A DNA stretch of 64,000 nt from Archangium sp. (GTDB taxonomy: Bacteria > Myxococcota > Myxococcia > Myxococcales > Myxococcaceae), in the NCBI GenBank assembly GCA_030695565.1, contig JAUYRZ010000123.1, positions 62,001-126,000 on the forward strand, in the 5' to 3' direction. Each line of letters opens with the position of its first letter. Position 1 is the first letter of the stretch. Shown one piece after another: positions 3,440-34,891 of this stretch. A model generated the notes under the pieces. That model was not told the origin of the DNA. It saw only the letters and a list, made by a program, of their open reading frames with translations, and did not search any database. Both the position numbers and the translations under genes were made by a program.

Positions 3440-4909
3440 TCATTGAGGGTGCGAAGCGGACGGCTGCGAGGACTTCGGCACGCCCGTCAGGATGCCGTGG
3501 AGGTTGCGCAGCGCGGGCCCGAGGCGAACGCCGTCTTGGGTCAGCTGGAGCTCCCGAATCGTCTGTTCGTGCGGGCCGGTGCGTTTCTTGGTCACCGAGA
3601 TCGCCCGGTGCAGCGCGCTGTCCGCCTCGTAGAGGCGCATCAGGATCACCGTGTCGGCCACGTAGGTGACGTCGACCGGGGTCTGCATGGTGCCCACCAG
3701 GCCGTGCTGGGTGACCACCAACAGGGTCGCGACGCCCTTCTGCGCCAGGTAGGTGAGGAGCTCGTGGAGCTGGATGAGCAGGAACCGCTCCTCGGGCATC
3801 GCGTTCAGGTAGCCGTTGAGGCTGTCGATGATCACCACCTTCGCGCCTGCGTCGACCGCGTCACGAATGGCGTGCGCAAACTCACCGGGCGACAGCTCGG
3901 CGGAGTCGACCTGCCGGAGCATCAGCATGCCGTTCTTCACGGCCTCTTCGAGGGGGTTGCCCATGCCGCCTGCGCGCGCCAGGAACGTGCTCACGTTCTC
4001 GTCGAAGGTGAACGCGGCCACCTTTTCGCCGCGCGCGATGACCGACTTGGCGAACTGGGTGGTGATGGACGACTTGCCGGTGCCGGCGGGCCCGATGATC
4101 ACGGTGCTGGTGCCGCGGTCGATGCCCCCTCCCAGCAGCTGGTCGAGCTCGGGCACGCCGCTGGTGATGGAGTCCCGCGCGAACTTCGAGCGGTGCTCCG
4201 CCGCCACCAGGCGGGGGAAGACCTTCATGCCGTTCTTCTCGATGATGTAGTCGTGGTTGCCGCTGCGAAAGTTCACCCCGCGCAGCTTCTGAACGCGAAT
4301 GCGCCTGCGCTCCGCCCCGTATTCAGGGGCCAGCTGCTGCAGGGTGATCACCCCGTGCACCAGGCTCTGCAGCTGGAGATCATTGGCTTCAGCGGTGCCG
4401 TCGTCGAGCAGCATCACGGTGCAGTTCCGGCCGACGAAGAACTGCTTGAGGCTCAGAATCTGCCGGCGGTACCGCAGCGCATCACCGGCCAGCAGGCGGA
4501 TCTCGGAGAGCGAATCGAGCACCACGCGCGACGGCTTGATCTCCTTCATCAGCGTCAGCATTTTCTGAATGGTCTCGTGCAGCTCGATCTCCGAGGGGTG
4601 GAAGAGCGTGTTCTGCGCCTCGTTGGCCATCGCCTCCTCGAGTGAAGAGAGCTCGAGCAGGTGCACGCCTTCGAGTGACCAGCCGTGTGATTGGGCCACG
4701 TCGCGCAGCTCTTCGGACGTCTCCGAGAGCGTCACGTAGAGCACCGTCTCGCCCCGATCGCGCCCCTCGAAGAGGAACTGCAGACCCAGCGTGGTCTTGC
4801 CCACCCCCGGTGAGCCCATCGTCAGGTACAGCCGATTCTTCGGCAACCCGCCGGTCAAGATGTCGTCGAGGCCAGGAACCCCCGTGGGGGCGATTGCCGT
4901 GGGTGTCAT
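3440..4909 (-). CDS. KaiC-like double RecA-domain ATPase
   Basis: Two KaiC/RecA-like ATPase domains lie in tandem. The first has Walker A GSPGVGKTT near residue 32-40 and VVLDSLSE as Walker B. The second has GPAGTGKSS near 270 and VVIIDSLNGY. This is the CI/CII layout of the KaiC superfamily at usual length (489 residues). A GTG at 4915 would add two residues, but the AGGGA ribosome site sits about 7 nt before the ATG at 4909, so that start is preferred. No kaiA or kaiB is present. KaiC homologues outside cyanobacteria often pair with histidine kinases, and here the stop codon is followed one base later by a hybrid kinase start. A signalling ATPase rather than a clock is the inference. Confidence 0.88.
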   Translation of the reverse strand: MTPTAIAPTGVPGLDDILTGGLPKNRLYLTMGSPGVGKTTLGLQFLFEGRDRGETVLYVTLSETSEELRDVAQSHGWSLEGVHLLELSSLEEAMANEAQNTLFHPSEIELHETIQKMLTLMKEIKPSRVVLDSLSEIRLLAGDALRYRRQILSLKQFFVGRNCTVMLLDDGTAEANDLQLQSLVHGVITLQQLAPEYGAERRRIRVQKLRGVNFRSGNHDYIIEKNGMKVFPRLVAAEHRSKFARDSITSGVPELDQLLGGGIDRGTSTVIIGPAGTGKSSITTQFAKSVIARGEKVAAFTFDENVSTFLARAGGMGNPLEEAVKNGMLMLRQVDSAELSPGEFAHAIRDAVDAGAKVVIIDSLNGYLNAMPEERFLLIQLHELLTYLAQKGVATLLVVTQHGLVGTMQTPVDVTYVADTVILMRLYEADSALHRAISVTKKRTGPHEQTIRELQLTQDGVRLGPALRNLHGILTGVPKSSQPSASHPQ

Positions 4910-5016
4910 GCGCACTTCCCTGAGGCTGATGATCTATTCGCCAAAGCGGGGCGTAGCTCGATTCTGACCATCCATTCGGTGGGCCATGCGCGGTGGGTGG
5001 AAACGGTGACTGCGGC

Positions 5017-5059
5017 CGGGAAAAGCAAAAGGCCCGGTGCTCCACAGAGCGCCGGGCCT
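5017..5059 (-). terminator. Intrinsic terminator after the GIDE-like gene
   Basis: A perfect inverted repeat, AGGCCCGG...CCGGGCCT with an inner GCTC/GAGC stem and a CACA loop, spans 5030-5059. On the minus strand it is followed by a T-rich tail (TTTTGCTTTT). It lies 24 nt after the stop codon at 5083 and should end the transcript from the sigma/caspase/GIDE unit. Confidence 0.8.
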
Positions 5060-5082
5060 CGTCATTTCTGCTGACGGTGCGG

Positions 5083-6774
5083 TCAGTCTTCGAGGTTCTT
5101 GTTGTTGCGGCTGGTGGTGACCGGCGCAGGCGCCGACGACTTCTTCACCACCGGCACCGGGGCGGGCTTGGCCACGGGCGCCACCGCGACGGCGGCCGGT
5201 TTGGGCGCAGGCTTCGCGATCATCGGCTTGGGAGCGGGGGCGGGCCGGGGCTGAACGGCCACCTTCACGGGAGCGGGCGCGGGCTTGGGGGCAGGGGCGG
5301 CCTTCGCCACCGGTGCCGGCCTGGCCGTGGTCTTCGGGTTCGACTCCCACTTCGCCAGCGCCTCGCCGACCTTCTCGTCGAACGAACCTTCGTAGACGAA
5401 CTCCTTCTCGGGGTCGGCGTTGAGCGCAGTGAAGCCGCTCACCAGCACCTCGGCGTTCATCGGCTTCGCCCTGGGGTGATCCTGATCCTTCGCCACGAAC
5501 GAGAGGGTGCAGTGCGACGCGTCGAGGCAGTCGAGCTTCTTGAAGTCGTAGTTGAACTGCCCCTCGCAGAACGTGTCGGGGCACAGCTCGTTCAGGTCGG
5601 CCACGCGGGTGGCGAGCTCTTCGGCGGTGAAGGCGCCCTTCTTCTCTTCTCCTTCAGCGGCGGCCACGGCGGGCGCGGCGTCAGGGGTGAGCGACTTGAT
5701 GGCGAGGTCGAACGAGAAGCCGCCCTTGACCATGTAGCCGTCGCCCGGCAGCACGGTCAGCTCGTAGGTGCCGGCCTTCACGTCGACGGTGGTGACCGCC
5801 TTCGTGCCCACGTTGCCCAGCTCGTTGGCGAGCTCCTCACCGGCAGCATCTTTCAAGATGAGCTGGGGCAGGAAGCTCACCTTCTTGGCCGGCGCGATGA
5901 CGCTCAGCTCGTACTCACCGGGCTTGGTGACGGTCCACGTGTACTTCTCGCCGCTGACGCTCGAGACGGTGTCGCTGCACTGCGGGCGCGCGTCGGTGAG
6001 CTTCGACTCGCAGTACGCCGAGACCGCGTTCGGGTCGGCTTCGGGCGCGAAGATCATCGCGGGAATGGAGAGCACCGCCGCGACGCCGCCGCCGATGAAG
6101 CTGAACTTCTTCTTCTTCTGAATCGAGCCGAGCAACCCTTCGCGGCCCTTGGCCGAGGTCATCATCGAGCGCCAACCCGGCTTGACCAACGAGGCGCCCT
6201 CGAGCTTGCCGAGCACGAACAGGCTGCCTTCGACGGGCACGAACTTTTCGGTGGCCTTGAAGCCGGTGGTCCAGCCCTTGTCGCCGCCGATGACCGGCAC
6301 GTCGTACGTCAGCTCGCCGAAGTTGAGGTGCGAGGAGCCCGAGTGGCCGTTGAGCTCCTTCTTGAGCCCGTCTTTGAAGTTGTCGAAGTCGGCGCCCTTG
6401 CTGACGTCGATCTTCACGATGCCCGAGCCGTCATCGAGGCCGAAGACCGCGCCGCCCTTGAGGGTGGTGAGCGTCTCGCTGCCCTTGACGGTCTTGGTGC
6501 CATCCTGGGTGGTCTCGGTCTTCTCGTAGAGGCGCTCGATCTTCACCTCGTAGGCGAGGCAGGGCTGCTTGGTGCAGGGCGAGAGCAGCTCCTGCTCGGG
6601 GGGCACCACCTTGCCTTCAGTCGACATCGCGCCTTTGGGGTCGGGCGAGCTGGGGTTCTTGGCGATCTCGCCGGTCTTCTTGAAAGGCGCCGCCAGGATG
6701 CGTTTGCCCTTGAGGTGGTTCCACAGGCCAAAGCCCAGCACCGCGAGACCGACGATCAGCAACAAGGCACCCAT
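5083..6774 (-). CDS. GIDE/BAM-like two-helix membrane protein with Pro/Ala-rich tail
   Basis: The protein has 563 residues. The ATG at 6774 follows an ideal AGGAGC ribosome site, and the longer frame to 6807 lacks one. Residues 3-20 form a membrane segment. Residues about 65-235 carry PCLAYEVKIERLYE, GAVFGLDDGSG and FVPVEGSLFVLG motifs in the order of GIDE/BAM domains (known from MULAN E3 ligases and bacterial relatives). A second hydrophobic helix follows near 240-260. The remainder has Cys pairs, a jelly-roll-like beta region and, after about 490, a Pro/Ala/Lys-rich tail. No RING finger is visible. A close paralogue lies at the left edge. It is downstream of the caspase locus on the same strand, 73 nt after the preceding stop, and is closed by a terminator. 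The GIDE assignment rests on pattern alone; the function is unknown. Confidence 0.8.
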   Translation of the reverse strand: MGALLLIVGLAVLGFGLWNHLKGKRILAAPFKKTGEIAKNPSSPDPKGAMSTEGKVVPPEQELLSPCTKQPCLAYEVKIERLYEKTETTQDGTKTVKGSETLTTLKGGAVFGLDDGSGIVKIDVSKGADFDNFKDGLKKELNGHSGSSHLNFGELTYDVPVIGGDKGWTTGFKATEKFVPVEGSLFVLGKLEGASLVKPGWRSMMTSAKGREGLLGSIQKKKKFSFIGGGVAAVLSIPAMIFAPEADPNAVSAYCESKLTDARPQCSDTVSSVSGEKYTWTVTKPGEYELSVIAPAKKVSFLPQLILKDAAGEELANELGNVGTKAVTTVDVKAGTYELTVLPGDGYMVKGGFSFDLAIKSLTPDAAPAVAAAEGEEKKGAFTAEELATRVADLNELCPDTFCEGQFNYDFKKLDCLDASHCTLSFVAKDQDHPRAKPMNAEVLVSGFTALNADPEKEFVYEGSFDEKVGEALAKWESNPKTTARPAPVAKAAPAPKPAPAPVKVAVQPRPAPAPKPMIAKPAPKPAAVAVAPVAKPAPVPVVKKSSAPAPVTTSRNNKNLED

Positions 6775-6847
6775 TTGAAGCTCCTGGAAACGACGAGGTG
6801 GCTTCAAGACCCACAGGGCCGATCAACTGTGAAACTTTTCTCCGCAG

Positions 6848-8431
6848 CTACGGCGCGCTGAGGACTTCCTTGACGCGCTCGAGAGACTCTTTGGCCAGCG
6901 TCCCCAGGAGCGCGTCGCGCTTCTTGAGCATCGGAGCCACGTTGCACCGCTTGGCCGCGCGCGTCTCGAACACGGCGGTGAGCGACTGCACTTTCTTGAT
7001 GGTGCCGTCTTTGTTGTACGTGGCGAGGCCCAGACCTGCGCCCGTGCCCGAGGCGGCCATTTCTTTCGCAACGCACGCCTTGACCGGCTCACGCGCCTTC
7101 AACAACGCGAGCACCCGCTTGTCCTGGCTCTTCTCGAATTCCCCAATGTCTCCATCGAAGCTGATCGTCGCGACACTCATGCCCGCTGAATCGAAGGTGG
7201 GCGCGCTGGGCAACACCACCTTGTTCGGCGCCTGGGTGGTGAACCAATCATCAGCCGGGCTCTTCTTGCGGCTCTCGTAATATTCGTCGCGCTCCTCCGA
7301 AAACGTCGGCTCGACGACGTCGCCGTTGACGCGAAGCACCTTCCGGTCGTTGAGCAGCAGCACGGGCTCACCTGGTGCGAGCGGCGCGTATTTCTCGCCA
7401 CCACGCTCCCCGGTGACCGGGGTCTCGGCGCGGGCGAACACCACGAACACGCGCGGAAGTTTCGTGAAGGCCGCGACCGCGAAGTTCAGGCCGCCACCGT
7501 CATCGTCGTAGCCAAAGGCCGCGAGCGTGCGGCCCGAGGGCTTCGAGGCCTGCTCGGGCTTCGCGATGACCAGCTCTTCGATCGAGACCGCGGCGCCTTG
7601 CTTCGAGAGGGTGGCCACCACCGCGCCGGGGCTGCCGCGCAACCAGACGTCGTCTCCGTCGGCCAGGCTCACCGCGATGGCGCCTCTGGTGTCCCGCGGA
7701 ATGAGGTCGCACTGCTCGATGGAAGAGGCCCCCGCGCAATTGACGAACTCGAAGAGGGCATCCGGAACGTTGGGGCGGGCCGCCGTCAGCACGAAGTCGG
7801 TGAGAGGCGCGCCCTCGACCAACAAGCGGGCGCCTTCTTTGCCGAGCGTGAAGGCCGCCGAGCGGCGATTCTCGGTGCCGAACACCAGGGTCTGCGTCGG
7901 CAGGTTCTTGCCTCCGTCGAAGGCCTTCGACGCCAGGTTCGCAGAGGCGGCGCTGAGCTCTTCCTCCCGGCTGCACACCGGGTACGCGGGCTCGTCGGAG
8001 CGCAAGCGCGAGCAGAACTGACGCATCGACTGCTGCGCCTTCGCTGCCGTCGCGGCGTTCGGGTTGGCTTTGTACGCGGTGTAGTCCTCCTCCATCGCGA
8101 GCGCAGCTCTGGCGGCCGAAAGGCGCTTGTCGGCCCTGGTGAAGATCTCCAGTCGGGTGAGGTACGCCGCGCGCTGGTTCTCGCCCACGTCAGCGGGTAC
8201 CCAACCTGAACTGAGCCGGGTGAAGCGCGCTCGCGCCAACTCGACGTCAGCGGCGAGACTGTTGATGCGCTGGTTGAGGGCTGCGACGGTGAGGTCGTTT
8301 GGCGTCAGTGCTGACTGCTGTTGCGAGACCCTCCCGAGGCGGTCGACCGCGGCATCTTGTTCAGCGGGCTGCGCTGCGCGGGCGGAAGCAGCCAGAACCG
8401 ACATCACGATGACGCAGGGGAGAAGTCGCAC
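6848..8431 (-). CDS. Secreted protein of unknown function (caspase operon)
   Basis: About 527 residues with an N-terminal signal peptide (hydrophobic LLPCVIVMSVLAA then ASARAA). A helical, Ala/Arg-rich region (about 30-130) is followed by a beta-rich part, and several Cys are spread through it. The C-terminal 120 residues have a compact KACVAKEMAASGTG...RCNVAPM pattern. No family is recognised. Two GTG codons are adjacent (8434 and 8431). The AGGAG ribosome site is 5 nt from the second and only 2 nt from the first, so 8431 is chosen. The start is 8 nt after the stop of the caspase-like gene, so the two are co-transcribed and the product is likely exported alongside it. Confidence 0.75.
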   Translation of the reverse strand: MRLLPCVIVMSVLAASARAAQPAEQDAAVDRLGRVSQQQSALTPNDLTVAALNQRINSLAADVELARARFTRLSSGWVPADVGENQRAAYLTRLEIFTRADKRLSAARAALAMEEDYTAYKANPNAATAAKAQQSMRQFCSRLRSDEPAYPVCSREEELSAASANLASKAFDGGKNLPTQTLVFGTENRRSAAFTLGKEGARLLVEGAPLTDFVLTAARPNVPDALFEFVNCAGASSIEQCDLIPRDTRGAIAVSLADGDDVWLRGSPGAVVATLSKQGAAVSIEELVIAKPEQASKPSGRTLAAFGYDDDGGGLNFAVAAFTKLPRVFVVFARAETPVTGERGGEKYAPLAPGEPVLLLNDRKVLRVNGDVVEPTFSEERDEYYESRKKSPADDWFTTQAPNKVVLPSAPTFDSAGMSVATISFDGDIGEFEKSQDKRVLALLKAREPVKACVAKEMAASGTGAGLGLATYNKDGTIKKVQSLTAVFETRAAKRCNVAPMLKKRDALLGTLAKESLERVKEVLSAP

Positions 8432-8439
8432 CACGGCTC

Positions 8440-10041
8440 CTAGAAGAAGACCATCAACCCCGCGGACAACGAGGGGTAAACGAACCAGTTGAACCCGGAG
8501 TCCGACGCGGTCGCGCCGTAGTTGAGCCCGGTGAAGCTGAAGTCTCCGCTGGCGATCAACGCGACCGACGGCGCGATGCGCACCTTGAGCGTCATGCGCG
8601 GCGCGAAGGCGAACACCACGGTCATCGCGCGGGCCTCGTAGAGCTGCGCCAGCACGCCGGGGCCCAACTCCACGCCCAGGCCCAGCTGCACGCGCCAGAG
8701 GTCGACCGCGAGCCGGTAGCCCACCCGCAGCTGAGCGCCCGCTTCGTTGGCGGCTTCACCCCCGGGAGGATTGGCGTCGAAGCTCATCTCACCGAGCGCC
8801 AGCAGGTGCAGCGTGCCGGAGAACCTTCCCCCACTGAACGAAGCGAAGGTGGTGGTGAGCGGCTCGACGTCGGCGCGCAGCTGCCACTTGGGCCCCTGGG
8901 CCGTGCCCTGCGGCGCGAGAATGCGCCCGGTGCCGCCGAGGCTCACGCCCACGCCGGCTTCCGCGCGCGAACGGGGCGAATCCATGCGCTGCACCACCAG
9001 CGGGCCACCCTTGGCGGCGACCACCACCGACGAGTGAATCGGCGTCATCGCGCTCATCTGCACCACGTGGCGCATGCCGTCGGTGAGGGTGACGCGGCCG
9101 CCGTACCCCTGGCCGCCCTTGAACAGGCGCAGGCCGTAGTGGCCGGCCGACAACGCGACCTCGCGGGCGCCGCCCACCACTTCGACGATCACCTGATCGC
9201 GCGCGAGGTCGATCACCAGGCTTCGATCGGCCTCGGGCAGCACCAGCACCGACGAGGGTTTCAGGAGCGTCGCGAGCACCAGCTCACCCTGGCCCGAGAG
9301 CTTGAAGTCGTAGTTGGGGTGCTGCGCACCGACCGGCAACATCGCGGTCGACACCACCGTGCGGTCGTACGCGTACTTGTACGCCTCGGCGAGGGTCACC
9401 AGCTTGTCGCCCGACGCATCGGCCGCGCCGCGCATGCCCGAGATGAGGTTGTGGGTGAAGTAGCTGCCCATCACTTCACTCGACTCCAGCGACGCTTCGT
9501 CGGCCGCGCTCGAGGTGATGAAGGCCTCGCCCGTGGTCTGCAGCGTGTCGGCCAGGCGAATGGTGAAGGTGTCGGCCGGCTTGCCGCCTTTTTCGCGCAG
9601 GCCCGCGCCGCTGCGGCAGGCATCGACCACCACCAGGCGTACGTCGCCGCCGGTGCCCGAGAGCAGCGCCTTCAAGCGCGCGTAGGCGAGCTTCTGGTGG
9701 CCCAGCTCGATCGCCTCGCCGTCGGAGTGACCGGAGAAGTAAAAGAAGACCACCGTGCGCACGTCGGGCGACTTCTTGAAGAAGGCCACCCGGTCTCGCA
9801 CTTCGGTGATGGCGCGTTCGACCTGATCGACGCCCTGGCCCTGCAGCAACATCACGTCTTCAGCGAGGACGTCGCCCAGCTCGACCATCACGCGCGCCAT
9901 CTTGCCGGCGTCGCTCTCGGCGTAACGCAGGGGCGGCATCTCGCCGGTGCCCGCGTTGTTGCCCACCACGATGGCCAGGCGGCGGGTCTCGGCAGAAGCC
10001 ACCGCCGCGCACAGGAGAATGAGGAGAGCGAGCTTGTTCAC
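8440..10041 (-). CDS. Caspase-family (C14-like) protease with beta-barrel-like C-terminal domain
   Basis: The protein has 533 residues and begins with a signal peptide (LALLILLCAAVASA). A caspase-like peptidase domain (about 20-240) has the His/Cys dyad in YFSGHSDG (His105) and VVDACRSG (Cys142), each after a hydrophobic strand as in metacaspases and other bacterial caspase homologues. A linker of beta repeats follows. The last 180 residues alternate hydrophobic and polar residues and end in LMVFF, as in outer-membrane barrels with a terminal aromatic residue. This suggests a periplasmic protease tethered to the outer membrane. The GTG start is 7 nt from the anti-sigma stop. The catalytic call is firm; the barrel is inference. 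Confidence 0.85.
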   Translation of the reverse strand: MNKLALLILLCAAVASAETRRLAIVVGNNAGTGEMPPLRYAESDAGKMARVMVELGDVLAEDVMLLQGQGVDQVERAITEVRDRVAFFKKSPDVRTVVFFYFSGHSDGEAIELGHQKLAYARLKALLSGTGGDVRLVVVDACRSGAGLREKGGKPADTFTIRLADTLQTTGEAFITSSAADEASLESSEVMGSYFTHNLISGMRGAADASGDKLVTLAEAYKYAYDRTVVSTAMLPVGAQHPNYDFKLSGQGELVLATLLKPSSVLVLPEADRSLVIDLARDQVIVEVVGGAREVALSAGHYGLRLFKGGQGYGGRVTLTDGMRHVVQMSAMTPIHSSVVVAAKGGPLVVQRMDSPRSRAEAGVGVSLGGTGRILAPQGTAQGPKWQLRADVEPLTTTFASFSGGRFSGTLHLLALGEMSFDANPPGGEAANEAGAQLRVGYRLAVDLWRVQLGLGVELGPGVLAQLYEARAMTVVFAFAPRMTLKVRIAPSVALIASGDFSFTGLNYGATASDSGFNWFVYPSLSAGLMVFF

Positions 10042-25218: not shown

Positions 25219-25581
25219 GTGCCTGCGCGATCCGTGATGGTCACAACCTTCAAGAACATGGCGGAAAATGGCAGTTTGCCGAAGCGGAGGGCTGTGTCGT
25301 TGAACGACGTGCCACGGGTGCACGGTGACACAGCGTTGCAGAAGGTGGGAGGGCGATGGGTCGCCGCTACTCCGGACGACCAATTGCATAGCTTCGAGGG
25401 CGCCGACGGGGTGGTGTCGGAGGTGGGCGAGCGGATCGTCGAGTTGATCGACGGGAAACGCTCGGTGGAGCAGATCATCGCGACACTGCTGAACGAGTTC
25501 GACGTACCGCGCGAGGTGGCGGAGTCAGACACCTTGGGTTTCATTGGGTTGTTGGCCGACAAACACGTTCTGTCCCTCTGA
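25219..25581 (+). CDS. PqqD-like (RiPP recognition element family) protein
   Basis: The protein has 120 residues. The C-terminal 75 follow the PqqD pattern: a WVAATPDDQLHSFEGADGVVSEVGERI strand-helix part, here split, then IVELIDGKRSVEQIIATLLNEFDV and a closing helix with GFIGLLADKHVL. PqqD-like proteins bind leader peptides of ribosomally made, modified peptides. The GTG start at 25219 follows GGGGGCC; ATGs at 25237 and 25258 would shorten a non-conserved basic tail. The stop is 48 nt before the lipoprotein start used here. The same transcript ends in a Cys-rich peptide gene, the kind of partner expected. No radical SAM or other modifying enzyme is adjacent. Confidence 0.72.
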   Translation: MPARSVMVTTFKNMAENGSLPKRRAVSLNDVPRVHGDTALQKVGGRWVAATPDDQLHSFEGADGVVSEVGERIVELIDGKRSVEQIIATLLNEFDVPREVAESDTLGFIGLLADKHVLSL

Positions 25582-28600: not shown

Positions 28601-30990
28601 GGCCCGTGATCACCAACGCCAATGGCAGCTGGGTCAATCGGGCGAGCAACCCCGCGGGAACGTCTCCCTTCACCACCACCATCGGAGCGTTGACCTCTGA
28701 CTGCGGTGGGGGCCGCAACGTGTACCTCTACGCTGGCGCACCCTCGGCAACCCCCTCGGGTACGCCCCAGGTAACCAACGCGAGCGGTGCCGTGAGCTTC
28801 GCTGGCACGAGCTTGACCGATGGGCAGCAGTACACGGTCAGCATCGACAATGGGGCTGGCGTCTTGACGCACCGGAGCTTCATCGCCAGCTTCGCTGTGC
28901 CCAACATTCCGAGCATCGCGTTGCAGCGGTCTGCCGCGCAGGTCGTCAACATCCCCGTCGCTCTCAACGCTGCGCTCGTCTTCGGGGCCGCGTCGGGGAA
29001 TCGCCGGGTCGAGACCGCGACGGTGACTGACATGGTGTTCGGCGATCTCGAAGGCGCGGCCGATGCGCAGTTTCAGCTGACGCTGACGGGCATCGAGGGC
29101 GCGCGCGTCGGCACCTTGAATGCCGAACTCGATATTCTCGAAGGTGCCACCTCGTTGCTCGCGCAGCCAGTGCAGGTCACCTCAGCGGCGTTTACCCCGA
29201 CCTTGCCGCGCTTGCGGCTCGCGCACCGCGCGGATGAGACGACGACGACGCTCGTCATTCGCGTCACCTCGCCTGCCGGCAACGTCTTCGTGAGCACGCA
29301 CCCGGCTCAAGTTGACGTGATCGCGCCTGCAGCACCCAGCGTGGCTCAGAACCTGACTTCGAGCCGCCGGGCAACGGTGGGCCTGACGTGGATGCCGGTC
29401 TTCGACGATGACGTGACCAGCACCAGCGGCGGTCTGGTCGGTGGCACGCCTGCAGCGGGCTACGACCTGCGGTGGACGACGAGCTCGGTGCCTTTCAACA
29501 ACTCGATGGCAGCCGAGTCTGACTTCTTTGGCACGTCTGCCCGTACCGAAGAGCTGATTAGCTGGGATTCCGCAGCCATCTCCCGCTCGCTGACCGTTCC
29601 TTCCTTGAGCTCGTACTTCATCGTTGTTCGCGCGCGCGACGAGGTGGGGAACTACTCGGCGTTCACAGCGCCCACTCAGGTGCTCAACGCAGCCACCGAG
29701 ACGCAGCTTTCCGATGGTGTCGCCGGTTCTGCGTTCGGTGCCTCCGTCAATGCTTCGCGTGACCTCAGCGGTGACGGCGTCAACGACATCGTGGTGGCTG
29801 CTCCGACGACGTCTGCCACCGGTGTCGGCGCGGTGTACGTCTTCCGCGGCGGGGCGACGCTGACGAACCAGGCGACCTGCGGCACCGGTTGTCAGCAGAT
29901 CCTTCCGCCGGATGGTCAGGCCGGTCAGTTCGGCGCGGACATCTCGGTGGGCAATGTCGGCGAGACCGGCAACGACCTCATCGTTGCCCAGCCGCGCTGG
30001 AGCGCCAACCTCGGTCGGGTGTTCATCTTCTTCGGCGGCGCGGGCAACATCGATACGACCCAGTTCATCGAGATCCGTGGAACGGCCCAGAGCACGTTCT
30101 TTGGTTCATCGGCTCGCGTAATCCAAAGCATCGACGGCGACGCGCTCGACGAGCTCGCGATCTCGACGCCGACCTGGGACTTGACGAACGCGAACACGGC
30201 GCTTCGGAGCATCGGTCGCGTGTACATCTTCCGCGGTAGAACGCGTGCGGCGTGGCAGGCGCTTGGTGCGACGGTTCCTCTGACTGCCGCTGACTGGGTC
30301 ATCGATGGCCCCAACCCTCGCTACGGTACGGGCAACGCCTACGGCCAGAACCGCCGAGGGCTCGTTTCACTCGGTGACCTCGACGGGGACGGCCGTGGTG
30401 AGTTCTCCATTCCGGTCTCTCGTGAGCTCGCTTCGCGCTTCCAGATCTGGCGCGGCTCGACTGTTGCCGGGGCAGTCGCTCCGTTGCTCTCGTCGCAGGC
30501 GCTTCAAGATCTCAGCGACTCCCCTGGTACGGGCACAGGCCTGAACGGCTTTGGTGCTGTCGCAGTGGGAGGGCTGGACATCACCGGTGATGGAGGAGTC
30601 GACCTTCTCGTCTCGAACCCTCGGCTGGATCGCATCTACCTCTACCCCGGCCTCACTTCCTCCGGCGCTTCGGGGGCTCCAGTTCAGATCGTGGGTGTGA
30701 ATCGTGCAGGCGGCTCGCTGGCAGCCTGTGACTTCAGCGGAGACGGCTTTATCGACGTCATGGCTGGCGAGGCTGGCAGCATTCCGACGACCGCGTGGGC
30801 TCTCTTCTCCGTCGGCGGTGCCCTTCCTGGCTTCGGCGCGCCACAGGACCACTTCGCGTCGGCTGTCCGTGGCAATGGGGCGACCAGTTTCATGGGTGCA
30901 TCTGTCTCGTGCGCGGAAGTCTCCGGCGATACTCTTCCCGATTTTCTAGTTGGTGACTCCGCAGCAGGCATCGTGAGGATCCTGAGATGA
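25630..30990 (+). CDS. Giant Ig-like/FG-GAP repeat lipoprotein
   Basis: About 1786 residues. From the ATG at 25630 the signal segment ends in the lipobox VVSGC (Cys23); an in-frame GTG at 25591 is less likely. Residues 40-1230 hold roughly ten to twelve Ig-like beta domains with recurring YTVTLTG-, GSYTVTA- and DAAGN-type strands and paired Cys. A fibronectin-like segment near 1245-1350 follows. The C-terminal 430 residues contain FG-GAP/integrin-propeller repeats with calcium-loop cores DLSGDGVNDIVVAAP, DLDGDGRGEFSI, DITGDGGVDLLVS and DFSGDGFIDVMAG. It is probably a surface-exposed adhesin or binding scaffold. Its stop overlaps the start of the Cys-rich peptide gene (ATGA). Confidence 0.85.
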   Translation: MVSGNVMRWACAIAGVVTVVSGCDCPGPNPPVNCSDTTITFETPTSGMTVDSPFEVSINVKNADGSAFPIDGAQLKVSGGAAIDGTVSGNRATFAGVPGSAGAQSLVATIASGTCSKSSSAQTITVRDACSTAAVTSVSFPQDMNGPGLGVLNRVELPPGTALQVQVDATCVNGVQVRIKQGNVEVSPLTDLTNGSALIALAGIPASDSERVDLFAELVRGGMVINSMAGNPQASASIQVNRALPSCAVTTTGSFGPSDDAEPAVAGFQMRITGTMDSTSTGTLTVTGQTPVAVAPMMGVDVSADFTLANSGAYTATLVCNDAFGNSVTATGMFSLDFEPPTIAIVSPATADGGATMVVTQSPLQIQVATNAEDGSFAEVLRDNVSVGVGTVMGGMVTLPVSFGNDGTYTITVRVRDAAGNQSSATFTVNVTLDGCGAAFSRPMTCPALLTPSQLQVGNYSFQTTSKTVCVNQSATLYRTDILGDGGMLAEVLVGSATVSAGGVTNFPALPVASGDYRFRASVQNLADAGTSEVNCHVTVDLDGPAITNPIVPGAATFATLNAAQDSQPAVPGVQRPLVFSARIPVGGSVDVCTTLAVDPMGMPYAATPECGAGWYRLRQGVTSPVSAFTFPEGTYSVKVVVVGGGVTPAPSSAPISLLVDGTRPCVTALSRTLPQDANADGRLNIAELAGGSPQLRFTLGCGDTSPATLAAAGPVVVRDVTGGVAGAVRASTAAFATGAYTVTLTGPFVSELDLGLFVELTDIAGNRNLIAMSNDPSSFTFRVDPVAPVCNITAPSAALLGIAQVPGGNLDVQVSTSADVGTNGVSIAFTGQAARVVSPSLGQAQSTYALTGDNSYTVGASCTDQSGNATNAAPRTTRVDLVAPTCNITAPANMAVSSTNDVTTTVAVTGVADGDVVQITSTVAGITNSQLTVAGATATRTVRYSNGVQTVTAAISDAAGNVCVAPAGGTLQVQITINSTSCNLDFATGGPVITNANGSWVNRASNPAGTSPFTTTIGALTSDCGGGRNVYLYAGAPSATPSGTPQVTNASGAVSFAGTSLTDGQQYTVSIDNGAGVLTHRSFIASFAVPNIPSIALQRSAAQVVNIPVALNAALVFGAASGNRRVETATVTDMVFGDLEGAADAQFQLTLTGIEGARVGTLNAELDILEGATSLLAQPVQVTSAAFTPTLPRLRLAHRADETTTTLVIRVTSPAGNVFVSTHPAQVDVIAPAAPSVAQNLTSSRRATVGLTWMPVFDDDVTSTSGGLVGGTPAAGYDLRWTTSSVPFNNSMAAESDFFGTSARTEELISWDSAAISRSLTVPSLSSYFIVVRARDEVGNYSAFTAPTQVLNAATETQLSDGVAGSAFGASVNASRDLSGDGVNDIVVAAPTTSATGVGAVYVFRGGATLTNQATCGTGCQQILPPDGQAGQFGADISVGNVGETGNDLIVAQPRWSANLGRVFIFFGGAGNIDTTQFIEIRGTAQSTFFGSSARVIQSIDGDALDELAISTPTWDLTNANTALRSIGRVYIFRGRTRAAWQALGATVPLTAADWVIDGPNPRYGTGNAYGQNRRGLVSLGDLDGDGRGEFSIPVSRELASRFQIWRGSTVAGAVAPLLSSQALQDLSDSPGTGTGLNGFGAVAVGGLDITGDGGVDLLVSNPRLDRIYLYPGLTSSGASGAPVQIVGVNRAGGSLAACDFSGDGFIDVMAGEAGSIPTTAWALFSVGGALPGFGAPQDHFASAVRGNGATSFMGASVSCAEVSGDTLPDFLVGDSAAGIVRILR

Positions 30991-31160
30991 CGTCCAAAAA
31001 GCAGTACGCCTCCCCTCAAGTTCGACTGGTGCCTGGTACCACCGCGAGTGCTGTTCAGTTGCTGGCCTGCAGCGGCTTGAACGTGGCCGTCTGTCCTGAG
31101 GCGCCGGATTGTTGCGCGCCTTCAGCCAATCAGTGCGCAGACGAGTGCACTCCGTTTTGA
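30987..31160 (+). CDS. 57-residue Cys-rich peptide, candidate modified-peptide precursor
   Basis: The ATG overlaps the stop of the lipoprotein gene (ATGA), so translation is coupled. The N-terminal half, beginning MTSKKQYASPQVRLVPG, is basic and cysteine-free. Its Y7-x-x-P10-x-V12 resembles the YxxPxL recognition motif of lasso-type leader peptides bound by PqqD-like domains. The C-terminal half holds all six Cys (28, 36, 42, 43, 50, 54) among Pro, Asp and Ala and ends CTPF. No signal peptide is obvious. It may be a RiPP precursor or a small disulphide protein that partners the lipoprotein. I do not recognise a family. The convergent Uma2 gene ends 13 nt away. Confidence 0.7.
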   Translation: MTSKKQYASPQVRLVPGTTASAVQLLACSGLNVAVCPEAPDCCAPSANQCADECTPF

Positions 31161-31173
31161 CCTGAGCGGAGGT

Positions 31174-31710
31174 CTAGCTCGGCACTTTCCACAACTCGCC
31201 GAGCGGCATTTCGAGACCTAAGAAGGTGGCCGTCCTGAAGAGGACGTCGCCTTCCAACTGCTCTTCGAGCAGCAGCTCCTGGCCCTTCAGCACGTAGCGC
31301 TGCAGCGTTCGCTTCTCGGGATCGATGAGCCAGTACTCAGCGGTTCCGATCGAGGCGTAACCCGCAAGCTTCTCCACTGAATCGAATCGAGCGCTCGAGG
31401 GCGAGATGACCTCGACCGCGAGGTCGGGCCCGCCTTCGCTCAGCGCCTGCTCGGGGATCACCCGGCCGGGCTTGAAGTACTGCACGTCAGGCATGAAGGC
31501 CTGCTCGTCGCTGATGCGGATTTTGTAGCCCGAGCTCAGCACGTTGCCGCCCGCTCCCGCCCTTCTCCAGGCCGTCAAGAAGTAGGCGACCATCGTTACG
31601 ATGTGCTCATGCAAGTGCGTTGGAACGTCGGTCTCCATCAGCTGGCCGCCGACCAACTCGCGTCGGTCGTCATCCGGCAGCGCGACGAACTGGCTCCAGG
31701 TCACTTGCAT
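31174..31710 (-). CDS. Uma2-family (PD-(D/E)xK) putative nuclease, copy 1
   Basis: The protein has 178 residues. The Uma2/DUF820 core is visible: WSQFVALPDDDRRELVGGQL, HEHIVTMVAYFL, FMPDVQYFKPGRV, GGPDLAVEVISPSS and YASIGTAEYWLIDPEKRTL. The Asp, Glu and following polar residues fit the PD-(D/E)xK nuclease fold. The ATG at 31710 has a short GAGG just upstream. Copy 2 starts 800 bp away, agrees over most residues, and shares its promoter-proximal DNA, so the pair arose by tandem duplication. Uma2 genes are common, often multicopy, and their role is not well established. Confidence 0.88.
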   Translation of the reverse strand: MQVTWSQFVALPDDDRRELVGGQLMETDVPTHLHEHIVTMVAYFLTAWRRAGAGGNVLSSGYKIRISDEQAFMPDVQYFKPGRVIPEQALSEGGPDLAVEVISPSSARFDSVEKLAGYASIGTAEYWLIDPEKRTLQRYVLKGQELLLEEQLEGDVLFRTATFLGLEMPLGELWKVPS

Positions 31711-31943: not shown

Positions 31944-32510
31944 TCAGTTCGGCACGTTCCACAACTCGGCGAGTGGCACTTCGAGACCTGAGAAGGTCGC
32001 CGGCCTGAAGAGGACCTCCCCTTCCAGCACCTCTTCCAGCATCAGCTGTCGGCCGTTCAACAGGTAGCGGTGCAGCGTTCGCTGCTCGGGGTCGATGAGC
32101 CAGTACTCCGCGGTGCCGATCGATGCGTAGCCTTCGAGCTTCTCGACCTGATCGTAGTGAACGCTCGACGGTGAGATGATCTCAACCGCCAAATCTGGAC
32201 CGCCCTCAATGAGCCCCTGCTTGGGCACCACTCGGCCCGACTTGAAGTACTGCACGTCGGGCATGAAGGCCTGATCGTCGCGGATGCGCACCTTGTATCC
32301 AGAAGCCAGCACGCGGCCGCCGCCTCCCGCCTTCCGCCAGAGCGTCAGGAAGTGGCTCAGCATAACCACGATGTGCTCATGCAAGTCGGTTGGCATTTCG
32401 AGCTCCTTCAGCCGCCCACCGATCAACTCGCGTCGATCGTCATCGGGCAGCGCGATGAAGTCGCTCCACGTGACCCCAGGCTGTGGAATCCTTTGCATGC
32501 CCGTCATCAT
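31944..32510 (-). CDS. Uma2-family (PD-(D/E)xK) putative nuclease, copy 2
   Basis: 188 residues from the ATG at 32510, chosen because GGGAGG lies 5 nt upstream; the frame stays open to 32555 without a ribosome site. The Uma2 core is the same as in copy 1: WSDFIALPDDDRRELIGGRL, FMPDVQYFKSGRV, GGPDLAVEIISPSS and YASIGTAEYWLIDPEQRTL. Divergence from copy 1 is scattered through the protein, so both copies appear intact. It is divergent from the metallo-beta-lactamase-fold gene at 32749, which is probably the ancestral arrangement. Confidence 0.88.
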   Translation of the reverse strand: MMTGMQRIPQPGVTWSDFIALPDDDRRELIGGRLKELEMPTDLHEHIVVMLSHFLTLWRKAGGGGRVLASGYKVRIRDDQAFMPDVQYFKSGRVVPKQGLIEGGPDLAVEIISPSSVHYDQVEKLEGYASIGTAEYWLIDPEQRTLHRYLLNGRQLMLEEVLEGEVLFRPATFSGLEVPLAELWNVPN

Positions 32511-32531
32511 AATCGCCTCCCTCAAAAGGGA

Positions 32532-32571
32532 GACGCGAAGGAGTTGGGCCCCCACCCAACTCCCTCGCGTC
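32532..32571. repeat. Long palindrome upstream of Uma2 copy 2
   Basis: GACGCGAAGGAGTTGGG (32532-32548) is followed after a CCCCCA spacer by CCCAACTCCCTCGCGTC (32555-32571), a 17-bp inverted repeat with one mismatch. It is the better-preserved copy of the element at 31735-31770. Confidence 0.65.
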
Positions 32572-32748: not shown

Positions 32749-33717
32749 ATGCCGGTCGAACTTCGCCGCGGAGGGCTCGTGCTGCAGGGCACTCCGTTGT
32801 GGTTCGACGCGCGCACCAAGTCCCCCGTCGCCTTCGTCAGTCACGCGCACTCCGATCACATCGCCCGGCATGAACGGGTGATCGCCACCCCCGAAACCCT
32901 CGCGCTGATGACCCACCGGCTGGGGCCGCTCGAGGCCACCACGCCCTTTCGCTACGGCGAGACGCTCGGGCACGAAGACCTGCACCTCGAGTGTTTCTCC
33001 GCCGGCCACGTGTTCGGCTCAGCGCAGATTCGCGTCACCCGGTCCGATGGGCATCGGCTCGTCTACACCGGTGATGTCTCGCTCGAGCCCGCGCTCACCG
33101 CACAGGCCGCTCCGGTGCTGAGCTGCGAGACGCTCATCATCGAGTCGACCTTCGGCCACCCGAAGTACCGCTTTCCTCCCCGCGCGCAGGTCTACGACGA
33201 GGTGGCCGACTGGGCGCGCCGGCAGCTGGCGCGTGGGGTGCGGCCCATTCTGCTCGCGTACTCCCTGGGCAAGTCGCAGGAGACCATTCGGCAGCTGGCG
33301 GTACGGGGGCTGAAGGTCTGTGCGCATCCCAAGATTCACGAGGTGGCGCAGATCTACGAACAGCTCGGCATGCCCGTCGGCGCCCGGCGTTTCGATGGCT
33401 CCTTCCTGGACGATGAGGTCGGGTTGTTCCCTCCCTTCCGACGGGGGGATTCACTGGCTCACGTGGGGCCTCGATCGTTGGCGGCGTTGACCGGCTGGGC
33501 GCTCGAGCCGTGGGGCGCGCGGCGCAGCGGGGCGGACGTCGCGTTTCCGGTTTCCGACCACGCCGACTTTCCTTCGCTGGTCGCCTACGCCCAGAAGAGT
33601 GGGGCCCGCGAGGTCATCACCGTTCATGGCTTTGCTGCGGAGTTGGCGGCTGAGTTGCGAGCGCTCGGCATGTTTGCTCGCGCGGTGACTGAGCAGGTTC
33701 AAATGGTGTTGTTGTAG
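32749..33717 (+). CDS. Metallo-beta-lactamase-fold exonuclease-like protein
   Basis: The protein has 322 residues. The metal site is seen as SHAHSDH (HxHxDH), then a later SAGHVFGSAQ His and YTGDVSLEP Asp. A beta-CASP-like region follows with AYSLGKSQETIRQL and a terminal FPVSDHADF and ITVHGF His. This is the pattern of mRNA 3'-end-processing-like nucleases and of the exonucleases found beside DNA ligases. A DNA or RNA hydrolase acting in the cytoplasm is inferred; no ligase gene is adjacent. The ATG follows AGAAGGA closely. A decayed copy of its first codons lies at 31839. Confidence 0.85.
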   Translation: MPVELRRGGLVLQGTPLWFDARTKSPVAFVSHAHSDHIARHERVIATPETLALMTHRLGPLEATTPFRYGETLGHEDLHLECFSAGHVFGSAQIRVTRSDGHRLVYTGDVSLEPALTAQAAPVLSCETLIIESTFGHPKYRFPPRAQVYDEVADWARRQLARGVRPILLAYSLGKSQETIRQLAVRGLKVCAHPKIHEVAQIYEQLGMPVGARRFDGSFLDDEVGLFPPFRRGDSLAHVGPRSLAALTGWALEPWGARRSGADVAFPVSDHADFPSLVAYAQKSGAREVITVHGFAAELAAELRALGMFARAVTEQVQMVLL

Positions 33718-33719
33718 TG

Positions 33720-33760
33720 ACCCCTCACCCCGACCCTCTCCCCGGAGGGGCGAGGGAGAC
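33720..33760. repeat. Dispersed CCCTCACCC-GACCCTCTCCCC hairpin repeat
   Basis: CCCCTCACCCCGACCCTCTCCCCGGAGGGGCGAGGGAGA lies directly after the stop of the metallo-beta-lactamase gene. Variants recur at 34876, 39787, 63138 and 63199. The CTCCCC/GGGGAG core can form a hairpin in RNA. Confidence 0.7.
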
Positions 33761-33764
33761 TGAT

Positions 33765-34142
33765 ATGAGGAAGACCGTGAAGGCCCTTCGACTCGTGCTG
33801 CTTGGGGAAGTGCACCCGGCTGTCGTCACCACCGTCGACTTCGATGACGCCGACGGGCTGCGGCTCGATGCCGACTTGATCGCAGCGGCCGGCTTCGTCG
33901 AGCACGAGAAGGTCGAGCTCTCCGATCTCTCCACCGGTACCCGGCTCTCGATTCAAGTGCGGCGCGGCAAGGCGGGCGAGGTCGGCGTGTGCGGCGCGGC
34001 CGCGCTCCTCATCAAGCCGGGAACGCGACTCACTCTCGCCAGCTTCGGCTGGATGAAAGAGAAGGCCGCCTCGAAGCACCAACCCTCCATCGTGCGCGTC
34101 GACGAGGAGAACCGGCCCGTGAAGAAGTCGAAGGCCGGCTGA
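33765..34142 (+). CDS. PanD-like (aspartate decarboxylase fold) protein lacking the pyruvoyl serine
   Basis: 125 residues from the ATG at 33765, preceded by GAGGGAG. It aligns with aspartate 1-decarboxylase over nearly its whole length: HPAVVTTVDF against HRVKVTHADL, AAAGFVEHEKVE, STGTRLSIQV (Arg54 kept), CGAAA and TLASFGWM. In that gapless alignment the self-cleaving Gly24-Ser25 reads Asp-Gly, Lys9 is Glu and Tyr58 is Gln. It should therefore not form the pyruvoyl cofactor or make beta-alanine. The stop overlaps the start of the HprK-like gene (TGATG), so the two are co-translated. A repurposed PanD fold is inferred. Confidence 0.7.
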   Translation: MRKTVKALRLVLLGEVHPAVVTTVDFDDADGLRLDADLIAAAGFVEHEKVELSDLSTGTRLSIQVRRGKAGEVGVCGAAALLIKPGTRLTLASFGWMKEKAASKHQPSIVRVDEENRPVKKSKAG

Positions 34143-34891
34143 TGGCGTTCGTCGAGCTCCTCTGCGCCGAGCAGGTGCTGCGCATCGACGCGTCCATCTG
34201 CGAGATGGCCACCGAGCGGGTGCACTGGAAACACTTCGTCGGCAGCGGTCCGCCTTCACTCACCGTTCGCCGCCACGCTTCGCTCGAAGGCACCACCATC
34301 GATGCGCCGCTGGGCCGCTGCACCTTCGTGCTCGAGGGCGACACGCTCGACGTCGCGGTGGAAGACGGCGTGTTTCGCGGGGAGCTGATTCTGCGGCTGG
34401 CCTGGTACCTGCTCGCCACCCGCCAGGGCGCCGTGCTCATTCATGCGTGCGCGCTGCGAGACGGCGACTCTGCCGTGGTGGCCGCGGGGAAGAGCGGCGA
34501 TGGCAAGTCGACCCTGTCGCGGCTCGGCGTCGGCGCGGGGCTGCAGCTGCTCACCGATGAAGTGGTGATGCTCTTTCCTGATGGGCGGGTGTGCGGCACT
34601 CCGTTTCGATCTGACTTCGAGAACGCGGGTCGCCCTGGCCTCGTGAAGGCGGCGTACTTTTTGGCCCTCGAAAAGGCCCAGACCGAAGAGTTGAAAGACT
34701 TGAGCGCGCTGGCAGCCACTCAGCTGGCCATGGCTCAGTGTTTCGACGTGGCAGAGGTCGCACTGCCTCGGCCCGAGGTGCGTCGACGTCTGCTTCAATT
34801 TCTTTCGAACGTGGAGCTGCGGACCCTCGCCTTTCGGAAGGATCCTGCAGCCGGGGACTTCGTGAGGGAATTGCTCGGCCCCTCACCCTGA
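34142..34891 (+). CDS. HprK-like P-loop kinase-related protein
   Basis: The protein has 249 residues. A Walker A loop, AAGKSGDGKSTL, lies near residue 117, followed by LLTDEVVMLF as Walker-B-like strand and GTPFRSDF. This is the layout of HPr kinase/phosphorylase relatives lacking the HPr-binding N-terminal domain. Such short HprK-like proteins are known from some RiPP loci, where they phosphorylate the peptide. Here the start overlaps the stop of the PanD-like gene. The open frame upstream to 33989 belongs to another frame of that gene and is discounted. The substrate is unknown. The stop codon is inside a dispersed repeat. Confidence 0.75.
   Translation: MAFVELLCAEQVLRIDASICEMATERVHWKHFVGSGPPSLTVRRHASLEGTTIDAPLGRCTFVLEGDTLDVAVEDGVFRGELILRLAWYLLATRQGAVLIHACALRDGDSAVVAAGKSGDGKSTLSRLGVGAGLQLLTDEVVMLFPDGRVCGTPFRSDFENAGRPGLVKAAYFLALEKAQTEELKDLSALAATQLAMAQCFDVAEVALPRPEVRRRLLQFLSNVELRTLAFRKDPAAGDFVRELLGPSP

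Follow-up and report, generated by a model that had tools for sequence, protein, structure and literature searches.

The closest described systems to the locus analysed here are the linear polyphosphorylated peptides (LPP; LppA/K/B/S/D/N). According to Popov et al. (2026, PMC13381572), an RRE presents the leader of these peptides to a signal-peptidase-like protease, an HprK-like kinase phosphorylates Ser3 of the core, and LPP as well as paeninodins are stated to be restricted to Bacillota. Their text contains none of the terms "myxo", "lipoprotein" and "FG-GAP", and searches of an open-access library gave no description of the system reported below. Here, we analysed a stretch of 64,000 nucleotides from Archangium sp. 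(the window) together with the genome to which it belongs and its relatives. The locus is best read as an LPP-like RiPP system of Myxococcota that is dedicated to giant surface β-propeller proteins. Its features in the window are the following.

25219-25581, + strand: stand-alone PqqD-like protein (RiPP recognition element), the sole PF05402 match in this genome
25591-30990, + strand: 1799-residue lipoprotein-like protein with bacterial Ig-like and FG-GAP repeats (domain matches; lipobox VVSGC read from the sequence)
30987-31160, + strand: peptide gene, 57 residues, precursor-like; ATGA overlap with the lipoprotein stop; homologues in the same place in relatives
30996-31022, + strand: predicted leader motif KKQYASPQV, Lys4 to Val12 (translation; residue counts in 41 peptides)
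31059-31160, + strand: variable C-terminal half with six Cys, the predicted core (translation; comparison of 41 peptides)
31174-31710, − strand: Uma2-family gene separating peptide and kinase, probably inserted later (annotation)
31944-32555, − strand: second Uma2-family gene (annotation)
32749-33717, + strand: ligase-associated exonuclease-like (MBL) gene (annotation); similar ORFs adjoin the locus in relatives (by eye)
33717-34142, + strand: PanD-like aspartate decarboxylase gene overlapping the kinase start (TGATG), probably a bystander (annotation)
34142-34891, + strand: kinase of 249 residues with predicted HprK/PEPCK fold; P-loop GKSGDGKST, LTDE and GTPFRSD (genome search, predicted fold)

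The peptide gene translates to MTSKKQYASPQVRLVPGTTASAVQLLACSGLNVAVCPEAPDCCAPSANQCADECTPF, with Lys4-Lys5, Tyr7, Pro10 and Val12 near the N terminus, Cys at positions 28, 36, 42, 43, 50 and 54, and CTPF at the C terminus. Retranslation agrees exactly with the frame of the original prediction, which had 57 residues, six Cys and a YxxPxV start. Its start codon, ATG at 30987, runs into the stop codon of the lipoprotein ORF (TGA, 30988-30990). Such start/stop overlaps are a usual sign of translational coupling, and we read coupling of peptide and lipoprotein from this one. Among 41 collected peptides, for which [YW]xxP itself was the selection criterion, the aromatic residue is Tyr in 36 and Trp in 5. 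Around the motif, Lys or Arg is found at −3 in 40 peptides and at −2 in 39, Val, Leu or Ile at +5 in 39, and Ser or Thr at +7 in 36, where the window peptide instead has Leu14. As judged from these sequences, the N-terminal half is the conserved, recognisable part of the peptide and the C-terminal half is the variable part.

Domain identities at the locus are established. The PqqD-like protein, which is encoded downstream of a heme o synthase gene, scores 47.4 bits against PF05402 (gathering cut-off 23.4), and PqqD-like matches are present in 49 of the 99 genomes searched, own genome included. With a profile of 27 PqqD-like proteins, the matches were TbiB1 (5v1u; E 5e-10), PbaB1 (9x90; E 6e-6) and LppB (9x8z; E 6e-5), so that the lasso RRE TbiB1 (5v1u/5v1v) is the nearest solved relative by profile. 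One helix of the family carries Asp104, which is kept in 90% or more of the sequences, and an invariant Phe108. Both align with the D and F of TbiB1 in the profile alignment, and their four-residue spacing is that of D70 and F74 of LppB, which contact the leader Tyr and Pro (PMC13381572). The proposal in the original prediction that the N-terminal half is a leader seen by the PqqD-like neighbour is thus supported by the conserved [YW]xxPx[VLI] segment and by the closeness of this neighbour to a lasso RRE.

The kinase gene lies 3 kb from the peptide gene, past the two Uma2 genes, the exonuclease gene and panD. The Uma2 genes are similar to each other, stand in tandem and are not there in the ORF-listed relatives with a compact operon. 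Given the TGATG overlap, the kinase may now be expressed together with panD. The AF2 model of the kinase (pLDDT 93) matches PEPCK (2e-8) and HprK/P (2e-4) in Foldseek and superposes on PEPCK with VIA Z 13.4 and rmsd 4.5 over 228, and the kinase is therefore predicted to have a PEPCK/HprK fold. Its best NCBIfam match is HprK_rel_A (TIGR04352) at 34 bits against a curated cut-off of 200; thus, it falls outside the HprK-related kinase A family, and no family assignment tells what class of substrate it uses. In a sample of 97 genomes from the class, 65 have kinase matches of E 1e-10 or better, other kinase loci included. A PqqD-like gene and the kinase gene lie within 10 kb on one contig in 27 of the 33 genomes having both (G050 via a weaker PqqD match).

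The protease gene is not in the window and is found at 7830-8249 of contig C30 of the same genome; in many relatives it is adjacent to the locus. The AF2 model of the protease (pLDDT 88) superposes on E. coli signal peptidase I (VIA Z 9.7, rmsd 1.9 over 89) and on LexA (VIA Z 11.2, rmsd 2.3 over 84), and we assign the protein, on the strength of the model, to the LexA/signal-peptidase fold. For kinase and protease alike, the fold is a predicted one because PDB profile searches with the two families gave no clear sequence relatives. Ser26, His65 and Asp83 of the protease are invariant (10/10 sequences); the corresponding residues of LppS are given as S29, H68 and D93 in PMC13381572. On C30, the signal-peptidase-like gene is convergent with a gene for a second peptide, which has a WxxPxV motif and stands behind a 1010-residue β-propeller protein; G004 and G005 share this arrangement. 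The C30 paralogue scored E 0.77 in a single-sequence search and was recognised only on reading its locus. With the protease beside the WxxP peptide, both peptides of the window genome are probably handled by a single recognition element, a single kinase and a single protease. A 733-residue protein with a MopE-type metal-binding motif is encoded at 5632-7833 of G000 contig C30 (L025), and its gene overlaps the protease start by four bases. The original prediction mentioned neither the window kinase nor the protease on C30 nor the second peptide.

The three proteins also co-occur. Among 36 genomes of the genus and family, a strong kinase match is present in 21 of the 24 with PqqD versus 0 of the 12 without, and a strong protease match in 23 of 24 versus 2 of 12 (relatedness ignored in both comparisons). 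Of the 36 PqqD-bearing genomes in a set of 60, 3 lack a kinase match at E 1e-3 and 11, none of them in the family, lack a protease match at this threshold; weak protease matches are nonetheless found in some loci of the protease-less genomes. In relatives, the operon continues behind the peptide with a P-loop protein that is weakly HprK-related, followed by an S24/S26-like protein that is GNAT-fused in some. In many relatives, the protease domain continues into a long C-terminal extension (L110, 8222-9190; L104, 8558-9532; L099, 8395-9375); in L110 and L104, this extension matches GNAT acetyltransferase. The protease gene of L110 is followed by one for an EamA-type transporter, and similar ORFs are found in other loci.

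We consider it likely that the 57-residue product is a RiPP-type precursor that is bound by the RRE, phosphorylated by the kinase, trimmed by the protease and partnered with the giant lipoprotein. In this scheme, the KKxYxxPxV segment would be bound by the PqqD-like protein of the same operon, as suggested by the conserved pairing of the two and by solved RRE-leader complexes. The bound peptide would then be passed to the HprK-like kinase and, by analogy with LppK, phosphorylated on Ser or Thr in or just before the core. By eye, many of the 41 peptides have a Ser or Thr after an LLxC or LFxP block; in the window peptide, Ser29 (after LLAC) is a candidate site. By analogy with LppS, the leader would be removed by the signal-peptidase-like Ser/His/Asp protease. 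Finally, the mature peptide would be exported, and the coupling of the two genes suggests that it would go with the giant surface lipoprotein.

Several lines of evidence relate the myxobacterial loci to LPP systems. First, a discrete RRE is encoded together with the precursor. Second, an HprK-like kinase is part of the cluster, in the window as in most genomes that have both it and PqqD. Third, a signal-peptidase-I-like protease with invariant Ser, His and Asp is encoded in the window genome, although outside the cluster on another contig; it adjoins the locus in many relatives. Fourth, the precursors in both have a YxxPxV leader and a variable C terminus. Altogether, three of the five LPP protein genes are common to the myxobacterial loci, of which one is unlinked in the window genome. 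The loci differ from LPP in belonging to Myxococcota rather than Bacillota, in the coupling of the peptide to a giant Ig/FG-GAP or β-propeller protein, in the GNAT fusion of the protease in some relatives and in the dispersal of parts in some genomes. Of the extended LPP leader YxxPxVLxHQxIxFETxxS, only YxxPxV is common to the myxobacterial peptides, and HQxIxFET is absent. No NTP transferase is linked to the locus, the PF14907 matches of the own genome being 62 kb from PqqD on its contig and on another contig. Each of the 36 genomes searched has NTP_transf_5 (PF14907), whether it bears PqqD or not, and the matches lie far from the loci where checked; being universal in this set, the family is uninformative as a candidate missing component. 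No MsbA-like exporter was detected in the window and 42 loci among ORFs of at least 350 residues with Walker A and [LVI]SGGQ, a search that misses divergent signatures. With neither a linked NTP transferase, nor such an exporter, nor the extended leader, we do not file these loci as LPP members. By analogy, they nevertheless probably work like LPP systems.

Whether the enzymes act on the peptide is the point at which one alternative departs. The kinase, the protease and the recognition element could act on the lipoprotein or another client, and the peptide could be a coupled assembly factor that binds PqqD. The conservation behind the giant gene bears on this. A locus was testable if its PqqD-like gene was followed by a giant ORF of full length (36 of 43 loci); the other seven (L088, L090, L091, L095, L100, L117 and L123), in which the giant ORF is missing or off the contig, were excluded before the count. 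A peptide was scored as a short ORF with [KR]x0-3[YWF]xxP that begins between −75 and +120 nt relative to the stop of the giant ORF, and the ends of the remaining ORFs of these loci served as controls. In this scripted count, a [YW]xxP-type peptide stands behind the giant ORF in 34 of 36 testable loci versus 12 of 114 control ORF ends, and one of the 12 positives, in L206, is the true peptide of that locus. Thus, the peptide behind the giant gene is no chance. By eye, a peptide is visible in the two scripted misses (L125 and L206) and also in the excluded L100. L108 (G030 C20), admitted on a match of E 0.001, was dropped, as it holds no PqqD, kinase or protease. The original prediction was to be given up if the frame were not kept behind the same lipoprotein in relatives; it is kept in these 34 of 36 loci.

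Synteny is likewise established. The order PqqD, lipoprotein, peptide, kinase, protease recurs in many relatives, and named carriers of the locus include Archangium lansinium MIWBW, Archangium violaceum Cb vi76 and Myxococcaceae MAGs. Other families of the same order retain PqqD, giant protein, peptide and kinase, and some add a weak protease match. A second layout is seen in L223 (G027, 3668-9035), with protease, a weak PqqD match, a 1035-residue β-propeller-like protein, the peptide RAYEAPAILWEQPF... and kinase; most of the g23 and g26 genomes in the class-wide sample also show a kinase match about as strong as that of L223. That giant protein and peptide stay together across loci, and that the second peptide type likewise follows a β-propeller protein, would fit an assembly factor. 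However, the segment conserved in the peptide coincides exactly with the RRE-binding motif, and its C-terminal half varies like a core. We therefore regard a mere assembly factor as unlikely and prefer a modified precursor.

A second alternative is a disulfide-rich, knottin-like protein, secreted or periplasmic, for which the PqqD-like protein would be a chaperone and no enzymatic modification would take place. The six Cys of the window peptide do stand in the order C-C-CC-C-C, and six Cys are found in most peptides from the window genus and the nearest genera. Across all 41 peptides, however, the number of Cys after the motif varies from 0 to 8 at the same leader type and gene order, and L124 and L207, order-level relatives in other families, have none. 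This variation lowers the knottin reading, and the co-occurring kinase and protease as well as the peptides themselves, in which no signal peptide was seen on reading, speak against it; we consider it improbable. By the same variation, the six cysteines characterise a lineage and are not the defining modification. The original prediction had named the Cys-rich half as the core. The C-terminal half is indeed the variable half, whereas its richness in Cys does not hold across the family.

The suggestion of the original prediction that the peptide is a lasso-peptide precursor fares less well. A [YW]xxPx[L/V/I] leader and a discrete, TbiB1-like RRE are both present, and the loci share with phosphorylated, paeninodin-like lasso peptides a discrete RRE, a [YW]xxP leader and an HprK-like kinase. 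By contrast, no B2-like protease is linked to the locus, a signal-peptidase-like protease being present in the genome instead, and the cores are of other make-up; TbiB1 is named a lasso protein but its partner enzymes differ from those of the myxobacterial locus. PF13471 (lasso B2-like) is over the cut-off in 4 of 36 genomes, and in the own genome the sole match is on another contig, C125, just above the cut-off (30.3 versus 26 bits). With the B2-like protease unlinked, lasso-type biosynthesis is unsupported, and we reject the lasso reading as very improbable.

Looked at singly, the peptide gene is inconspicuous. It has zero family matches in Pfam or NCBIfam and no tblastn match in plasmids, and single-sequence searches gave noise outside its own locus (46 of 60 genomes had matches at E of 1 or less, nearly all in unrelated frames). 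Its codon-position G+C is nearly flat (33, 34 and 37 of 58), so composition alone would have left it unidentified. In four close g16 loci, the gene has 4-7 synonymous versus 1-4 non-synonymous differences (pN/pS 0.05-0.32 over six pairs), and one g8 pair has 2 versus 3 (pN/pS 0.48). A spurious open frame, which the flat composition and the very short ORF would allow, is refuted with near certainty by position, motif and frame kept across about 40 genomes and by the low pN/pS in close relatives, and the gene is established as real.

We tentatively suggest, as one possibility, that the product is not released but, once phosphorylated and trimmed, serves giant surface β-propeller proteins across Myxococcota as their own partner, be it a ligand, a prosthetic group or a tether. 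If this is so, the combination of RRE, kinase and protease thought to be confined to LPP clusters of Bacillota would also exist in Myxococcota, adding one more phylum for RiPPs that combine an RRE, an HprK-like kinase and a signal-peptidase-like protease. Such a RiPP would moreover be tied to a defined surface protein, a link of which our searches of an open-access library gave no description. The analysis also provides about 40 precursor sequences, which gene callers may skip. Were the partner reading true, the role of phosphorylated linear RiPPs could be put to a direct test in bacteria that are amenable to genetics.
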